Part shown: positions 602 to 60,675 of the stretch, one piece after another
Numbering within the stretch: position 1 is the first letter of the stretch
Layout of the letters: every line of letters starts with the position of its first letter
Assembly (NCBI RefSeq): GCF_000380985.1
Contig: NZ_KB905701.1
Coordinates: forward strand, 1-64,000
Source of the DNA: Proteiniphilum acetatigenes DSM 18083
Lineage (GTDB): Bacteria; Bacteroidota; Bacteroidia; Bacteroidales; Dysgonomonadaceae
DNA length: 64,000 bases
Direction of reading: 5' to 3'
Made by a program: the position numbers and the translations under genes
Notes under the pieces: model-generated
What the model saw: the letters and a program-made list of their open reading frames with translations, nothing else
Told to the model about the DNA's origin: nothing
The model's database searches: none

Positions 602-811
602 ATGAAGAATATTGATTTAACCGAATGGTTGGACTGGATTGACGGACAGGACGTGCTACTGAAAATGAACGTTGCCCCGCGCACGTTGCAACGGTGGCGT
701 ATCAACGGGCTGCTCCCGTATTCCAGGGTGAGCGGCAAATGCTACTACAAGAAGTCGGATATCATTGCTTTGCTAAATGAGAATTATAATAGGGAGAAAA
801 GTGAAAAGTGA
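602..811 (+). CDS. Small helix-turn-helix protein (excisionase-like fold)
   Basis: This is a 69-residue protein with a MerR/excisionase-like winged helix: LKMNVAPRTLQRWRINGLLPYS is the recognition region and GKCYYKKSDIIALL the wing and following helix. Such HTH_17-type proteins are common in Bacteroidetes mobile elements, where they act as recombination directionality factors or small regulators. The last codons (REKSEK) and the TGA stop lie inside a GTGAAAA heptamer array, so the true C-terminus may have been replaced by repeat sequence. The neighbouring transposase and phage-like genes support a mobile-element role; target and partner are unknown. Confidence 0.75.
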   Translation: MKNIDLTEWLDWIDGQDVLLKMNVAPRTLQRWRINGLLPYSRVSGKCYYKKSDIIALLNENYNREKSEK

Positions 812-849
812 AAAACTAAAAGTGAAAAGTGAGAAACCAAGAGTGAGGA
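801..849 (+). repeat. Heptamer array overlapping the stop codon
   Basis: Seven units in register: GTGAAAA, GTGAAAA, ACTAAAA, GTGAAAA, GTGAGAA, ACCAAGA, GTGAGGA. The stop codon of the upstream helix-turn-helix gene (809-811) is part of unit two. The spacer continues to 1055 as purine-rich degenerate sequence with several ACAAATG copies (around 880-960) and no reading frame. Confidence 0.8.
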
Positions 850-1765: not shown

Positions 1766-2152
1766 ATGACAGATATGCTTCAAATAAACAGTGAATTGTT
1801 CCCTTTGCTTAGCTCGTTCATAGGCGGAGGGGCATTGGGGAGCCTGATTTCAACCGTGGTAAACCACAAGGAAAACAGGCGCATCAAGAAAAGCGACGCC
1901 ACCCGGTCGGAAGCGGCCGCCAAACGGGAGGATGCCTCCGCGGCGACGGAGATGATGGGACTGCTGGAACGTACCGTGGCGCTTTTTGAGTTGCTGCAGT
2001 CGCAGCGGACGGAAGATTACAGGAGGATTACCGCCTTGGAGAAAACGATGGAGACAGAGTTGGCGTGGCGGAAAGACGGGGATTACCACTATTGTGAAGT
2101 GGAGGATTGCAAGAATCGCAAACCGCCCATGGGGACGTTTAGGAGAGAGTGA
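1766..2152 (+). CDS. Small membrane/coiled-coil protein, holin-like position
   Basis: 128 residues. One hydrophobic segment (about residues 12-32, LFPLLSSFIGGGALGSLIST) is followed by a basic stretch, an alanine/glutamate-rich predicted coiled coil (about 45-95) and a C-terminal CEVEDCKNRKPP with two cysteines. The family is not recognised. Small one-helix membrane proteins directly before an endolysin gene are often holins or holin-like spacers in phage lysis cassettes; that is the suggestion here, from position and topology only. Its stop codon lies in a GTGAAAA heptamer, and the 24 bases to the next start are pure heptamer repeat. Confidence 0.6.
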   Translation: MTDMLQINSELFPLLSSFIGGGALGSLISTVVNHKENRRIKKSDATRSEAAAKREDASAATEMMGLLERTVALFELLQSQRTEDYRRITALEKTMETELAWRKDGDYHYCEVEDCKNRKPPMGTFRRE

Positions 2153-2176
2153 AAAACTAAAAACTAAAAACTAAAA
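2149..2176 (+). repeat. Heptamer array filling the whole spacer from stop to start
   Basis: Four units, GTGAAAA then ACTAAAA three times, run from the stop codon (TGA 2150-2152) to the base before the endolysin ATG at 2177. Every unit contains TGA or TAA. Confidence 0.85.
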
Positions 2177-3307
2177 ATGGACAAAAGGGTGTTTTTTGAT
2201 ACAATCGGGCGGTCGCTTTTCAATGGGCGACTGTCATTAAGCCGCAGGGACGGTATCGAGACAAAGTTAAGTGCGTTCGATGTTTATGGCATCACGGATG
2301 AGAGATGGCGCGCCTACATGCTTGCCACTTCGTACCACGAGACGGGCGGGACCATGCAGCCGGTGGAGGAGACCGGCAAAGGGAAGGGTAGGCCGTATGG
2401 AGAGAAGCGCAAGCAAGATGGCACGGTGTACACCTACCCCGACCGGTTGTATTTTGGCCGCGGCGATGTGCAACTGACCTGGTACGAGAATTATGAAAGG
2501 ATGGGGAAACTGTTGGGGTATCCTTTGTTGACGCATCCCGAACTCGCTTTAGAACCGGATATCTCGGCAAGGATCCTGGTAGAGGGGATGACGCGGGGAA
2601 GCTCCAACCGGGGAGACTTCACCGGGGTTTCGCTGGAAGATTATTTCAATGACCATACAGATGATCCGGTGAATGCCAGAAGGATTGTGAACGGCTTGGA
2701 CTGCGCGCGCCGGATTGCGGAATATCACAGGAAATTTTTAGAGGCCCTGAAGATAGCCTTTGTGGCCTTCGTCGCCGTCCTGCTGTTGCCGTCGGGATTG
2801 GCGGGATGCAAGCCGGGCCGGGTGGTGACCGAAAGGATTGTTACCCGCACCGACAGTTCCGCCGTGCAGATGTTGTCCGACAGTTTGTACCGGAAAGAGG
2901 CTCAAATTGCCTTCCTCCAAGCCGATGTAAAGCGGGCAAGGGCAGAGAATATCCGTCTCAGGAGCGAGACACGCCGGTACGAGATACAATATGACACAAC
3001 CGCTCCGGTGGACACGGTAACCGGGAAGCAGCGGGTGTTACGGGAAATCATTACATCCACCGGGATCCGCTACGGAAAAGTAACGGAAGAGGCCGAGGAG
3101 CGGCATGAGGAGATGTTCGCGGCACGTGAAAATTTCGCTGTTGAGGACAGGAACCGGGTTCTTACAGTGGATAAACAAACCCGTGAGGACAGGGCGTTGA
3201 AAGAGAAAACGACAACTCTCCGGTTTAATTACAAGCTTTTCCTGGCAGGAGTAGTAGCAGGAATGGTAATAGGTGTCGGAATGATGCGGCTATTGAAAGG
3301 TATTTGA
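2177..3307 (+). CDS. GH19 endolysin fused to a spanin-like lipobox/coiled-coil/membrane tail
   Basis: 376 residues. Residues 1-190 are a glycoside hydrolase family 19 (chitinase-like lysozyme) domain, with the catalytic glutamate in SYHETGG (E55) and the substrate-cleft signature YFGRGDVQLTWYENY (92-106). This family cleaves peptidoglycan in phage endolysins. Residues 193-211 are a hydrophobic segment ending in a lipobox-like LAGC (208-211). Then comes a charged stretch with VVTERIVTRTDS, a predicted coiled coil (about 225-270), another charged helical region to 345, and a C-terminal membrane helix (352-372). The second half resembles the separate lipoprotein/Rz-like proteins encoded after endolysins, here in one frame with the enzyme. 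The C-terminus overlaps the converging ATPase gene by 18 bases. Enzyme assignment is firm; the spanin comparison is inference. Confidence 0.8.
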   Translation: MDKRVFFDTIGRSLFNGRLSLSRRDGIETKLSAFDVYGITDERWRAYMLATSYHETGGTMQPVEETGKGKGRPYGEKRKQDGTVYTYPDRLYFGRGDVQLTWYENYERMGKLLGYPLLTHPELALEPDISARILVEGMTRGSSNRGDFTGVSLEDYFNDHTDDPVNARRIVNGLDCARRIAEYHRKFLEALKIAFVAFVAVLLLPSGLAGCKPGRVVTERIVTRTDSSAVQMLSDSLYRKEAQIAFLQADVKRARAENIRLRSETRRYEIQYDTTAPVDTVTGKQRVLREIITSTGIRYGKVTEEAEERHEEMFAARENFAVEDRNRVLTVDKQTREDRALKEKTTTLRFNYKLFLAGVVAGMVIGVGMMRLLKGI

Positions 3308-12354: not shown

Positions 12355-12462
12355 GAAATTAAGAATTAAGAATGAAGAATTAAGAGTGAAGAATGAAGAA
12401 TTAAGAGTGAAGAGTGAAGAATGAAGAGTGAAGAGTGAAGAATGAAGAGTGAAGAGTGGAAA
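12351..12462 (+). repeat. Sixteen-unit heptamer array starting on the stop codon
   Basis: From GTGAGAA (12351-12357, containing the TGA stop of the GHL10 gene) the sequence runs in perfect seven-base register through units ATTAAGA, ATGAAGA and GTGAAGA to GTGGAAA (12456-12462). Every unit except the last carries TGA or TAA at positions 2-4, so all three frames are closed many times over. The rest of the spacer to 12570 is purine-rich and without features. Confidence 0.9.
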
Positions 12463-12572
12463 GGAGGGAAGGCGGACAAAGAATATCAGAACCAGGAGGA
12501 AAGTGAAAAGGTGCCTATGTGATTAAGTGAGGTGAAAGAGCAGGTAGTCTGTGGGGAAATGAAATGTGGTCG

Positions 12573-12608
12573 TGATAATTGGTAATTGGTAATTAGTAAT
12601 TGGTAATT
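12573..12608 (+). repeat. GGTAATT heptamer array before fur
   Basis: Five units: GATAATT, GGTAATT, GGTAATT, AGTAATT, GGTAATT. Seven is not a multiple of three, so TAA appears in each frame. Confidence 0.85.
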
Positions 12609-12646
12609 TTCAACTGAAAAAGAGGTGGAAAATCGAAAAAATAGAA

Positions 12647-12654
12647 TAATTTTG
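12647..12654 (+). promoter_or_regulatory. -7 element immediately before fur
   Basis: TAATTTTG ends six bases before the fur ATG at 12661, so the transcript would be leaderless or nearly so. No good -33 box. Confidence 0.45.
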
Positions 12655-12660
12655 TAGCCT

Positions 12661-28191: not shown

Positions 28192-28749
28192 ATGGAAGAT
28201 GTGAAAGAGGCGGTCAGAATTTGTCGATTGGATACACTCAATTATTCCGAGTTCAGAAGCAAGCTGATAGAGCTTTACCTGCATGCTTTTACTACAGGTG
28301 AGTATGCCCAGTTTATCGCTCCGGAAACCGTAGAGGTTACCCTGGATAATATATTGCAGGACGGAGCGGGTTGTATGGCGTTTGTCGGCGACCGGCTTGT
28401 GGGATTGCTCGCAGCTTTTCCTTTGAAGAGAGATCCGGATTTCCCTGCCGATGGGTGTCCCGATATTCCGGTCGGTCAAGCGGTTTATATCTCAGAGGTA
28501 ATGGTACATGCGGATTACCGGGGTAGGGGGATTGCATCGCAGATGCTGAATAACTACCTGCAAAAGGCGTCGGAGAATTATTCCTATGCTGTGATCCGGG
28601 TGTGGGAAAAGAATAAGCCCGCATTGGAACTTTACAAAAAGTTGGGATTCGTACCTGTTGCCGGAATTTCACAGAGGAAATTAAGTACCGGGGGAGAGGA
28701 ATTTGAAATGAAGAAAGTCTATTTGGCGGTTAAGATAATTGACAATTGA
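28192..28749 (+). CDS. GNAT-family N-acetyltransferase
   Basis: 185 residues. VYISEVMVHADYRGRGIASQMLNNYL contains the acetyl-CoA-binding RGRGIA loop, and YAVIRVWEKNKPALELYKKLGFVP is the classic C-terminal motif B (N-x-x-A-x-x-x-Y-x-x-x-G-F). Substrate is unknown. The last codons (IIDN) and the stop are supplied by a GACAATT heptamer array, so the C-terminus may have been reshaped by the repeat. Confidence 0.9.
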   Translation: MEDVKEAVRICRLDTLNYSEFRSKLIELYLHAFTTGEYAQFIAPETVEVTLDNILQDGAGCMAFVGDRLVGLLAAFPLKRDPDFPADGCPDIPVGQAVYISEVMVHADYRGRGIASQMLNNYLQKASENYSYAVIRVWEKNKPALELYKKLGFVPVAGISQRKLSTGGEEFEMKKVYLAVKIIDN

Positions 28750-28771
28750 TAATTGACAATTGACAATTAAA
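28737..28771 (+). repeat. GACAATT heptamer array overlapping the acetyltransferase stop
   Basis: TAATTGA-type heptamers, read as AATTGAC, AATTGAT, AATTGAC, AATTGAC. The gene's TGA (28747-28749) is one of the TGAs in the array. The following spacer keeps a loose seven-base rhythm (AAATCCG, AGATCCC, AAATCAT, TAAATCT, TGAATTG) until about 28845. Confidence 0.85.
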
Positions 28772-28896
28772 AATGGATATGGAAAGTTGAAAATGGATAA
28801 TTCCCAAATCCGAGATCCCAAATCATTAAATCTTGAATTGAAACAACGTTCGGCGGAGCCAACATCAGCGGAGCTAAATTGTGAAATTAAAAAAAT

Positions 28897-33896: not shown

Positions 33897-33975
33897 CTGG
33901 GGAGATTGGGAAAGGGGGAGGCTGGGGAGAAATAAGAAGTTAGAACTCTGAGTTGAAAATCGACGTTAGTCAAAT

Positions 33976-34010
33976 CTTGAATCTTGAATTTGAAATCTGA
34001 AATTTGAAAA
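33976..34010 (+). repeat. CTTGAAT heptamer array before engB
   Basis: Five units: CTTGAAT, CTTGAAT, TTGAAAT, CTGAAAT, TTGAAAA, each with TGA, ending three bases before the engB ATG. Confidence 0.8.
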
Positions 34011-34013
34011 ATT

Positions 34014-34613
34014 ATGATCATAAAAAAAGCAGAATTCGTGATAAGTAACAGCGACTACCGGAAGTGCCCGCAGGATGGGAAACCGGAGTATGCGTTTATT
34101 GGCCGGTCGAATGTGGGGAAATCGTCGCTTATCAATATGCTGACTAACCGGAAAGGGTTGGCCATGACCTCTTCCACGCCGGGGAAGACGATGCTTATCA
34201 ACCATTTTCTGATCAATGACGAATGGTATCTGGTGGACTTGCCGGGATATGGCTATGCACGCCGCGGGAAAGAGGGTCGGGATAAACTCCGTAAGATCAT
34301 CGAGGATTATGTCCTGGAACGGGAAGCGATGACCAACCTGTTTGTGCTGGTGGATTCGCGCCATGAGGCGCAGAAGATAGACCTGGAGTTTATGGAGTGG
34401 CTGGGTGAGAATGGTGTTCCGTTTGCCATCGTCTTTACCAAAGCCGATAAATTAGGTTCCGGCCGGTTACAGTTAAATATCGATGCCTACAAAGAAAAAC
34501 TGCTGGAGACCTGGGAAGAACTGCCGCCTGTCTTTGTTACTTCATCCGAGAAAGGGCAGGGCAGGGAAGAATTGCTCAGCTATATCGACAGTATCAATAA
34601 AACAATTCTGTAG
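34014..34613 (+). CDS. engB: Ribosome biogenesis GTPase EngB/YsxC
   Basis: 199 residues. [17 protein letters not shown] is the G1 loop, TPGKT G2, [15 protein letters not shown]3, FTKADKLG G4 and [14 protein letters not shown]5. The essential GTPase assists 50S subunit assembly in the cytoplasm. Length and motifs are standard. It converges with atpG, 7 bases apart. Confidence 0.96.
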
Positions 34614-37081: not shown

Positions 37082-37090
37082 GTATGTTAA

Positions 37091-37118
37091 ATTGAAAATT
37101 GAAAGTTGAAAGTTGAAA
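37091..37118 (+). repeat. Heptamer array in the atpH-atpA gap
   Basis: Four units: ATTGAAA, ATTGAAA, GTTGAAA, GTTGAAA, written on the plus strand although the genes run on the minus strand. On the coding strand the units lack stops, so this array breaks the orientation seen elsewhere. Confidence 0.8.
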
Positions 37119-40501: not shown

Positions 40502-40935
40502 AACTCAATATCCTTTCGGGAGTTTTTTTGCTGTTTATCCTTATATTTAAAATAGAGTTCCATTCTCATATAGATATATGTTTCCCAAATCAGGTTGATG
40601 AGATAGAAAATGACAAAAATAATTGCGAAATTACGAATATGGGGTTTATCTAAGAACCAATATATGAGAATGATGATTACCGACATGAATATCTTGATCA
40701 TGCGCATAAGCATATAGAAGTTGACCATCTTTTTGGGTTCGTTGACGGGAGTGCGTTTGAACTGAAAAATGAAAATAAGTCCCATCAGGTAGAAAAAGAG
40801 AGGAACAATGAAGTAATAGTCAACCATCGTTTCCGGAAAGAACTTATTCAGGATAAACCAAAAGCCGAATCCCGTGATGAGTAGCATGATTGTATGAACG
40901 ATAAGAAAATATGTTGTGAGTTTTTTCATTCTCAA
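40498..40935 (-). CDS. AtpI-like small membrane protein of the ATP synthase cluster
   Basis: 145 residues with four hydrophobic helices (about 6-30, 40-58, 80-95, 100-120) and a lysine-rich C-terminus. No sequence motif of classical AtpI is obvious, but the position between atpC and atpB, four-base overlaps on both sides and topology match the AtpI-type c-ring assembly proteins found here in Bacteroidales. Confidence 0.7.
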   Translation of the reverse strand: MRMKKLTTYFLIVHTIMLLITGFGFWFILNKFFPETMVDYYFIVPLFFYLMGLIFIFQFKRTPVNEPKKMVNFYMLMRMIKIFMSVIIILIYWFLDKPHIRNFAIIFVIFYLINLIWETYIYMRMELYFKYKDKQQKNSRKDIEL

Positions 40936-41174
40936 TGAATTTCATCAATACAAACCGTTACTTTATTGTTGTGCATTTCCATTACCCCGTCTGAAACTTC
41001 GATCTGCCGGATCTCACCGTTTACCGTGAAGGAAAGTACTCCTTTTGTCAACGATGAAATAATAGGAGCATGGTTGTTCAGTATCTGGAATGATCCTAAC
41101 GTACCTGGTAGGGTGACGGAGTCTGCATCACCTCTATAAAAAACAGATTCGGGTGTAAGAATTTCCAGTGTCAT
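40932..41174 (-). CDS. atpC: ATP synthase F1 epsilon subunit (short form)
   Basis: 80 residues: MTLEILTPESVFYRGDADSVTLPGTLGSFQILNNHAPIISSL is the N-terminal beta sandwich. The C-terminal helical hairpin of the E. coli protein is absent, as in other Bacteroidetes, so the inhibitory arm is missing. Overlaps the AtpI-like gene by four bases. Confidence 0.95.
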   Translation of the reverse strand: MTLEILTPESVFYRGDADSVTLPGTLGSFQILNNHAPIISSLTKGVLSFTVNGEIRQIEVSDGVMEMHNNKVTVCIDEIH

Positions 41175-41183
41175 ATTTCTAAA

Positions 41184-41252
41184 TTACCAATTACCAATTA
41201 CCAATTACCAGTTACTAATTGTCAATTGTCAATTATCAATTGTCAATTATCC
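41184..41252 (-). repeat. Heptamer array between atpD and atpC
   Basis: On the plus strand TTACCAA-type units (4) change to TTGTCAA/TTATCAA-type units (4-5). Read on the coding (minus) strand these are GACAATT/GATAATT then GGTAATT, the same family and relative orientation as the arrays at 12573, 28737 and 60648. Confidence 0.88.
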
Positions 41253-41269: not shown

Positions 41270-42817
<1,548 letters not shown>

Positions 42818-58112: not shown

Positions 58113-58240
58113 TGTTTTATATTGTTTGATGATTTTATTTCAATTCAAAATTCCGAATTCAAGATTTAAGAGTCCAGCATCCCGGACTTCTTCTAATTTC
58201 TAATTTCAGTCTTCCGACTTCTCCACTTCTAACTTTTCAT

Positions 58241-58699
58241 TTACTCCTTTTTAATAAATAGCCGGTTGATCAGTTCTTCGGAATCCTTTCCACCTTCCAT
58301 ATAAATGAGTGTGGCAGTACCGTCGTCTCCGATTTTGAACAAGATATACCGGTTGGTTTGGTTTTCCTCTTCCGGTAGCTGATAATAACCTGAAGAGATA
58401 ATACCGTTGCTGATGACTTCTTTTATCTGGTGCGCCTGTTTTTTATCTGTTTCAAGGCACTGTTGTATTTCATCCAGAATGGTCCGGTTATATTGCAGGG
58501 TAATGCTGCGGTATTTATCGAGTCGATAATTATGGAGCGCCTTGCCGGAGAGGACTACCATTGTAGCGCCTTTTTGCTTGCCATATTTTTCGAAAACAGT
58601 ATTGATCCTCAGGTTTTCCTGTGCTTGTACCGTCACTCCGGAGGTTACCAGCAACAGGAAAAGGATAAGCAGGCGTGGAAATGTTCTTTTTATCTTCAT
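58241..58699 (-). CDS. Small secreted protein, DUF6108-like
   Basis: 152 residues. Signal peptide (1-26, RTFPRLLILFLLLVTSGVTVQAQ). ENLRINTVFEKYGKQKGATMVVLSGKALHNYRLDKYRSITLQYN resembles a family I recall as DUF6108 in Bacteroidales sigma/anti-sigma operons; no motif suggests an enzyme. Gap to the next gene (58113-58240) carries seven-base units (ATTCAAG, ATTTAAG; TTCTAAT twice). Confidence 0.65.
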   Translation of the reverse strand: MKIKRTFPRLLILFLLLVTSGVTVQAQENLRINTVFEKYGKQKGATMVVLSGKALHNYRLDKYRSITLQYNRTILDEIQQCLETDKKQAHQIKEVISNGIISSGYYQLPEEENQTNRYILFKIGDDGTATLIYMEGGKDSEELINRLFIKKE

Positions 58700-60502: not shown

Positions 60503-60647
60503 ATTGATCCCGACAAGTCGGGACAGGTAGTGATGATTTGATAATTTACTGATGTGATGATTAGTTAATAAGCCAATAAGACTAATGTGATGATTTGAGA
60601 ATGTGTTGATGTGGTAATTGATAATTGTGCCAATGTGCCAATAAGTT

Positions 60648-60675
60648 GGTAATTGGTAATTGGTAATTGGTAATT
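60648..60675 (+). repeat. GGTAATT heptamer array before rfbD
   Basis: Four GGTAATT units (60648-60675). The gap 60503-60647 before it has further GGTAATT/GATAATT units (from about 60612), CCAATAAG and GTGATGATT near-repeats and no reading frame. Confidence 0.88.

Follow-up and report, generated by a model that had tools for sequence, protein, structure and literature searches.

The short tandem arrays between the genes of this locus raise the question of what sets their direction, and why one of them, inside the atp operon, changes its unit part-way along. The window, by which is meant the whole stretch of 64,000 nucleotides from Proteiniphilum acetatigenes DSM 18083 that was analysed, contains four arrays that an earlier note had described as one family of units oriented with the flanking genes, from which it proposed a role in the transcript. 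These arrays are real, and Tandem Repeats Finder (TRF) places them at 12576-12608, 28737-28768, 41182-41249 and 60646-60675, at most 3 bases from where that note had put them. From the sequence and the gene calls, the units at 12576 and 60646 read GGTAATT on the plus strand, both adjoining plus-strand genes, and the array at 28737 reads AATTGAC on the plus strand. The units at 41182-41249 are indeed reversed inside the minus-strand atp operon, and the change of variant within this array was also confirmed, the plus strand passing from AATTACC/AATTACT to AATTGTC near 41214-41221. The idea of a single family needs division. GGTAATT arrays precede the starts of a Fur-family gene, an RmlD-family gene and the gene for the epsilon subunit, and AATTGAC arrays follow the stops of a GNAT-family gene and the beta-subunit gene; since the array at 28737 and the right half of that at 41184 thus lie at the stop of the upstream gene and the GGTAATT arrays before starts, two position classes are present. 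Phase-variable simple repeats lie at surface or variable genes, whose expression they switch through repeat number; among the ten proteins adjoining the four arrays are members of the Fur, F1-ATPase, GNAT and RmlD families, and none is an evident surface antigen.

Heptamer arrays between genes

The source genome (G000; 4.78 Mb in 37 contigs) was sampled first as the window plus 20 stretches, giving 464 kb with 308 gaps and 46.7 kb between genes, and the sample was then enlarged by 20 further stretches to 864 kb, 588 gaps and 94 kb of intergenic DNA. Among the named genomes matched, the AtpB protein of the window is nearest to that of a Porphyromonadaceae MAG (72% identity), followed by a Bacteroidetes MAG (67%) and Dysgonomonas sp. 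PH5-45 (59%), which most likely places it in the Bacteroidales. Array scores and gene calls came from our own scripts, in which gene starts are approximate, and periods 2-21 were scanned with a score threshold of 14. At this threshold the 464 kb contain 32 intergenic arrays of period 7, none of periods 2-6 or 9-13, and two of period 8; the harmonics 14 and 21 account for 19 and 11 arrays, and periods 15-17 for one each. Ten Markov-1 shuffles of the same 464 kb gave a period-7 expectation of 0.0, and no period-7 array lay inside called genes, which were scanned up to 30 bases from each end. The enlarged sample contains 46 arrays of period 7, six of period 8 and none of periods 1-6 or 9-13. At its lowest score TRF also reports weak repeats of other periods, with 40 entries in the window.

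Two congeners gave a similar picture at a score of at least 14. G053 (400 kb) has 22 arrays of period 7 and 1, 2, 6 and 2 of periods 2, 8, 10 and 11, and G063 (399 kb) has 27 of period 7, seven of period 8 and one each of periods 9, 12 and 13. Within called genes, scanned to the same distance from their ends, no period-7 array was found in the samples of any of the three genomes. At a score of at least 11, arrays occupy 58/588 gaps in G000, 26/281 in G053 and 25/280 in G063. A unit of exactly 7 bases and a concentration between genes, the features of the repeats described in PMC4692102, are therefore found in all three genomes. Many heptamer words are used, including GGTAATT, AATTGAC, TTCAAGA, AGTGAAG, GTGAAAA, TTGAAAG, ACTAAGA and GGGATTT. 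The exact GGTAATT pattern is rare, being present in 7/101 genomes of the family and 5/395 of the phylum.

Other repeated sequence occurs as well. Between called ORFs at 874-953 of the window TRF reports tandem copies of a degenerate 30-base unit with many GACAAATG-like words. At 60503-60560, and in the syntenic gaps, CCCGACAAGTCGGGA-like palindromes are followed by GTGATGATTT-type words, the same gap being recognized in G000, G053 and G060. Among 14-mers recurring outside arrays none was frequent enough to be reported in G053 or G063; in G000 there are sense-only modules, and those around GAATTGAAAATCGAGGAGCGAAGGCGACTC occur in sense in 4-6 co-directional gaps and in antisense in none, with similar words at 28800-28890 and 33940-34010 of the window.

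Direction relative to gene ends

Within the window, arrays read outward from the gene end beside them. The GAAAAGT-type array at 796-832 (plus strand) extends over the end of the called ORF upstream of it (602-811, plus) and runs outward from its stop. An AATTAAG/AGTGAAG array at 12357-12458 (plus) begins 2 bases past the stop of a GHL10-family gene and is the left partner of the GGTAATT array at 12576-12608, which lies 52 bases ahead of the Fur-family gene and reads outward from its start as AATTACC on the minus strand. The AATTGAC/AATTGAT array at 28737-28768 (plus) overlaps the stop codon of the GNAT-family gene (28192-28749) and runs outward from it. The AATCTTG array at 33973-34009 (TTCAAGA on the minus strand) lies 4 bases ahead of a gene starting at 34014, and the GGTAATT array at 60646-60675 (AATTACC on the minus strand) lies 12 bases ahead of the RmlD-family gene; both read outward from the start. 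The earlier note had singled out the ATTGAAA array at 37091 as a counter-example because it runs the other way. This ATTGAAA/GTTGAAA array, placed by TRF at 37089-37118 (plus), stands 7 bases ahead of the start of a minus-strand gene (37081) and so fits the outward rule. In total, eight of the nine arrays with a score of at least 11 agree with the rule, and the ninth is an AAAAACT array at 2152-2177 (plus) that fills the whole 24-base gap between two plus-strand genes, which makes its position class ambiguous. A weak GAAATTA array at 58191-58207 (minus), 33 bases past the stop of a minus-strand gene (58241-58699), also runs outward by eye; its score of 10 is below the threshold for the polarity counts.

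For these counts each array was labelled by the nearest gene end, and its direction was predicted from the 6-mers of the arrays of the other two genomes with orthologous gaps excluded. Five arrays identical to others were dropped beforehand, and 42 more were dropped to leave those clearly placed, which means not more than 40 bases away from one gene end and clearly nearer to it than to the other. The outward rule agrees with 113 of the 130 arrays in the three genomes, with 16 disagreements and one tie, and with 83 of the 88 clearly placed arrays (4 disagreements, 1 tie), with little difference between stops and starts in any of the genomes. The corresponding figures for a rule based on the direction of transcription are 85 agreements, 40 disagreements and 5 ties for all arrays, and 58, 27 and 3 for those clearly placed. 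The gene end is thus the best predictor of array direction in the genus, beyond transcription.

Because the words read outward, the sense words before starts are the reverse complements of those after stops. The GGTAATT family has the sense form GGTAATT in 24/25 start-side arrays and the reversed form AATTACC in 9/12 stop-side arrays of the three genomes; TTCAAGA is reversed in 9/9 start-side and forward in 8/9 stop-side arrays, and GTGAAGA-type words are forward in 16/18 stop-side and reversed in 6/8 start-side arrays. AATTGAC is forward in 11/12 stop-side arrays, and its eight start-side arrays divide into five forward, against the rule, versus three reversed, the exceptions including composites such as that at 41182. 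The rule is weak in divergent gaps (4 agree, 3 disagree) and agrees in 4/5 convergent gaps; arrays that fill or nearly fill a gap carry the post-stop type in sense in 4/13 cases. In terms of composition, A exceeds T on the outward strand in 77/88 clearly placed arrays and T exceeds A in 10/88. Start-side arrays in co-directional gaps are accordingly T-rich in sense (38/44) and stop-side arrays A-rich (41/45). Array-free leaders in gaps of at least 70 bases are more often A-rich: 147 A-rich, 90 T-rich and 13 ties in G000 (n = 250), 59, 42 and 5 in G053 (n = 106), and 73, 33 and 9 in G063 (n = 115). The start-side arrays therefore oppose the composition of ordinary leaders.

The bias towards the direction of transcription is real for the exact GGTAATT unit. 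Genome-wide there are 12 distinct exact AATTGGTAATTGGTAATT arrays, 11 between co-directional genes and one between convergent genes, and the tabulation of their orientation shows a strand bias rather than an equal split: 10 of the 11 in co-directional gaps run with transcription, and the sole one that runs against it (1/11) is gap-filling. Orientation is non-random, as had been claimed, and for the genus as a whole the gene end predicts it better.

Arms that each read away from their own gene end will converge when two of them share a gap. Segments were labelled on the basis of arrays that were clearly placed and lay in other gaps of the three genomes. Of 44 pairs of neighbouring segments within one gap, 34 are convergent, two are divergent and eight have the same direction, one identical orthologous gap being counted twice. 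The two arms of a gap frequently differ in word, and many arms occur singly. The switch within an array is therefore the meeting point of two arms. The array at 41182-41249 fills most of the 95-base gap on the minus strand between an F1 alpha/beta-family gene (41270-42793), which is the beta subunit by operon position, and the epsilon-subunit gene (40932-41174). Its AATTACC/AATTACT arm at 41182-41216 (plus) reads outward from the start of the epsilon-subunit gene (41174) and is GGTAATT in the sense of the operon, and its AATTGAC/AATTGAT arm at 41217-41249 (minus) reads outward from the stop of the alpha/beta-family gene (41270) and meets the other at the switch. The switch at 41184 is thus the junction of the beta-subunit-stop arm with the epsilon-subunit-start arm.

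Convergent arms, as in these 34 of 44 pairs, are also what would be seen if the two arms had been selected to pair in RNA or DNA, forming terminators, stabilizers or cruciforms. This is most improbable. When own and swapped arms were paired in 34 gaps, the own arms paired worse on average (mean -9.5 versus -11.3 kcal/mol), and 1685 of 2000 permutations were at least as stable, which tells against a selected hairpin. Different words are common between the two arms, and termination inside the atp operon would probably be harmful.

The AtpC protein was found in 36 of 39 genomes of the genus, and 30 of the regions were read. By eye, the gap before AtpC is filled by arrays in 3/30 (G000, G088 and G053); no placement was possible for G065, and the remaining 26 gaps span -4 to 64 bases and show no sign of an array. 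All three array-bearing genomes have GGTAATT as the right arm and differ in the left arm, which is AATTGAC, AGTGAAG or, in G053, a 10-base unit, ATTGAATAAG. The tandem array of period 10 formed by ATTGAATAAG in this G053 gap (L147) is an exception to period 7. In 32 comparisons of array-bearing gaps with those of the array-poor genomes G060 and G087, of which 28 are left once three that repeat the same gap and one based on flanking proteins 24-25% identical are set aside, the gap of the relative was always shorter and had no array at a score of 10. G060 is not wholly array-free, since two of its gaps score 12 and 13, and its gap matching that at 60503 contains a short GGTAATT run. In the 12355-12660 gap the part shared with G060 is the 3' portion, which lies downstream of both arrays and looks like a promoter. 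From these sequence comparisons the arrays look to have been gained recently, even inside the atp operon. Turnover between orthologous gaps was also followed by fifths. Of 27 pairs in which both gaps have arrays, three near-identical ones were dropped, and the other 24 gave mean matched fractions of 0.80, 0.73, 0.78, 0.72 and 0.80, with no clear concentration of turnover in mid-gap.

Other lineages and known repeats

Outside the genus the picture is mixed. A set of 80 named loci surrounding atpB, mostly of Prevotella type and 814 kb in all, contains 35 intergenic arrays of period 7, 11 of period 8 and two within genes; arrays occur in 24 of the 80 loci. Among 47 arrays the sense polarity fits 39 and the outward rule 28, the latter divided into 11/14 at the stop side, 3/9 at the start side (six disagreeing, as against three at the stop side), 13/22 gap-filling and 1/2 others. 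The outward polarity that holds in the genus (83/88; 4/7 in divergent gaps) is therefore absent before the starts of the named loci (3/9). In 21/22 gap-filling arrays the post-stop class of word lies in sense. Operon gaps of approximately 30-45 bases in L065-L144 are filled end to end by AACATTAA, ACATTGA or AATTGAC (e.g. L144 4288-4324 and L105 4238-4269). Related species probably contribute corresponding atp-operon gaps to many of these loci, which are therefore not independent. The named loci favour a link with transcription in this mostly Prevotella lineage.

G270 belongs to a different family of the class; there the rule trained on the genus gave eight agreements and one tie among nine arrays, several by narrow margins. 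G262, also from another family of the class, has one weak array in 159 kb. The GGTAATT loci of other genera and families are few and mixed: L057 and L236 are outward, L058 is a convergent composite, and L060, L062, L235, L237 and L238 are against the outward rule or ambiguous. The reversed word used as a control, TTAATGG in tandem, matches at many places in a few other Bacteroidota genomes from which GGTAATT is absent (G262, G270, G271 and others), with none in the 159 kb of G262 read; these genomes suggest that lineages may use different heptamers.

Tandem heptanucleotides are also known from heterocystous cyanobacteria, where they are termed short tandemly repeated repetitive (STRR) sequences. 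Others, in Xanthomonas and Nostoc, were reported by Rehm et al. in 2015. The words GGGAATC of Xanthomonas and GGGGA(T/C)T of Nostoc PCC 7120 are mostly intergenic; the largest group lies within 0-50 bp of a gene end, on the coding strand past stops and on the non-coding strand ahead of starts (PMC4692102). That paper also records 70 and 75 convergent pairs in two Xanthomonas genomes and few inverted pairs in Nostoc, reports no common functional class of genes, discusses the geometry through G-quadruplexes, cites the idea that heptamers reflect the segment of DNA held by the polymerase, and states that an excess of heptamers in bacterial spacers had been noted earlier, its cause not being established (PMC4692102). 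The arrays of the genus are alike in having period 7, in lying between genes and in reading outward at both gene ends, and as in Xanthomonas convergent pairs share one gap, here in 34/44 adjacent pairs. Unlike the G-rich words of that paper, 117 of the 130 genus arrays have no GGG on either strand. As G-runs able to form quadruplexes are generally lacking (GGG in 13/130 arrays on either strand), the likeness is one of geometry only and the arrays are not members of the G-rich family; and as the geometry is kept in the 117 arrays without GGG, quadruplexes cannot be its general cause.

Direct repeats of TAACTGA have been described from Beggiatoaceae, Cyanobacteria and five Bacteroidetes and interpreted as a translational binding site (MacGregor, 2015; PMC4679880). 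In F. litoralis 12/14 sets are forward before starts and one set is reversed directly past a stop, and for some arrays close relatives have shorter gaps without repeats (PMC4679880). Nearness to start codons, a fixed orientation and such shorter gaps are shared with the genus arrays. TAACTGA differs from them in being one word only, and from the outward rule in that 13/14 BOGUAY sets overlapping the end of the upstream ORF are forward to the downstream ORF (PMC4679880). Two adjacent copies of TAACTGA occur on neither strand in any of the 130 genus arrays. Within the Bacteroidales, the BrickBuilt MITE/minisatellite of Porphyromonas gingivalis also consists of intergenic tandem repeats and differs in its 23-base unit, its leader and tail subunits and its small inverted-repeat ends (PMC4596501). 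In the literature searched, which covered few subscription journals, no paper was found that states the outward rule for Bacteroidota and AT-rich heptamers. Added here are the rule for many words in one Bacteroidota genus, the frequent difference between arms, and the gain inside an essential operon.

Possible origin of the arrays

The features of the arrays hint at an unexplained process at the level of DNA that advances in seven-base steps. We tentatively regard the genus arrays as outward, one- or two-armed intergenic insertions of mutational origin, by-products of repair rather than transcript signals, and give this reading a probability of roughly 35%. In each arm the A-rich strand leads outward, 5' to 3', from the gene end beside it, be that a start or a stop. 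Where a gap is broken or stalled, a slip-prone polymerase may lengthen the 3' ends by copying their last seven bases anew, with drift, and the ends would then be joined; this polymerase, the joining step and the cause of the A-rich strands are parts that we infer. Gaps would tolerate such insertions and genes would not, so that selection need do no more than clear arrays from genes, and the by-products would be tolerated in operons. The symmetry between starts and stops is hard to obtain from an RNA signal and easy from strand growth out of genes, which favours a mutational origin. End extension alone would not predict that some composite modules recur in several gaps, and this view leaves the Prevotella-type loci unexplained. 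The forward start-side AATTGAC arrays, the weak fit in divergent gaps and the spread of turnover along the gap likewise count against it. Joining by Ku is not supported, as the distribution of PF02735 does not track the array pattern counts: Ku is above the cut-off in 11/39 genomes of the genus, absent from the closed, array-rich G053, and present in G054, G061 and G087, which match neither test pattern.

A role in the transcript, as first proposed, would have mRNA leaders or intercistronic spacers bound by S1, Csp or Csr-like proteins with direction kept. The bias of exact GGTAATT (10/11), the sense polarity of the named loci (39/47, and 21/22 gap-filling), a sense rule above chance even in the genus (58/88) and the translational role proposed for TAACTGA of Beggiatoaceae (PMC4679880) all speak for it. 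Within the genus, however, GGTAATT and TTCAAGA words are mostly reversed at the other side of the gene, the sense rule fails in 27/88 arrays versus 4/88 for the outward rule, start-side arrays are T-rich where array-free leaders are more often A-rich, and the promoter-like part of the 12355-12660 gap lies downstream of both arrays. Given also that the arms of one gap pair no better than swapped arms, a transcript role is not favoured in the genus and is rather unlikely overall. Replication slippage of the ordinary kind, in steps of seven set by the polymerase footprint and followed by selection against the wrong orientation, would draw on the over-representation of heptamers in bacteria and the footprint idea, both reported from earlier work in PMC4692102, and on a by-eye reading in which units within an array differ mainly by base substitutions. 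Slippage as such, though, carries no polarity relative to gene ends, and no selective rule that would explain it was found. Stop codons in the unit do not track polarity when the words are read by eye; stop codons in all frames were dropped as a reason for the words, since several outward words (AATTACC, TTCAAGA) contain none. We consider this explanation unlikely.

Dispersed mobile or foldback (MITE-like) elements, with heptamer arrays as their ends and inserted as units, would make the convergent arms resemble terminal inverted repeats. Recurrence points the same way: the same module, a GTGAAGA block, GGGATTTGTTGATTTAA and a TTGAATC block, occurs in two sampled G053 gaps with a third similar module seen, sense-only modules recur in G000, and the MITE of P. 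gingivalis has tandem repeats (PMC4596501). Yet the arms combine many different words and many stand alone, no common body was seen across two-armed gaps, the left arms of the atp gap differ among three congeners that have the right arm in common, and the P. gingivalis unit is of 23 bases. Such elements are accordingly a distinctly improbable source. To return to the mutational reading, a speculative and distinctly improbable extension of it is that bacteria of several phyla share an undescribed reaction at DNA ends, in which 3' ends receive self-templated, A-rich strands of heptamer periodicity before they are joined, the intergenic arrays being its footprints; by analogy it might be likened to telomere-like extension without a fixed template.

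The existence of one polarity rule across unrelated words and at both gene ends argues against quadruplexes and simple translation signals as a general explanation in the genus, and points to how the DNA is made. The rule predicts convergent arms, seven-base steps and words that are independent of gene function, all of which can be checked in any genome, and the mismatch in Prevotella provides a ready contrast to the genus. If a shared DNA-end reaction does exist, outward polarity would be its signature across words, a mid-array switch would mark the joint, and lineages such as Prevotella, in which one arm fills the gap, would differ in the end that is extended. For the atp operon, the arrays mean that sequence gained a few bases from the start codons of essential genes need not be regulatory.
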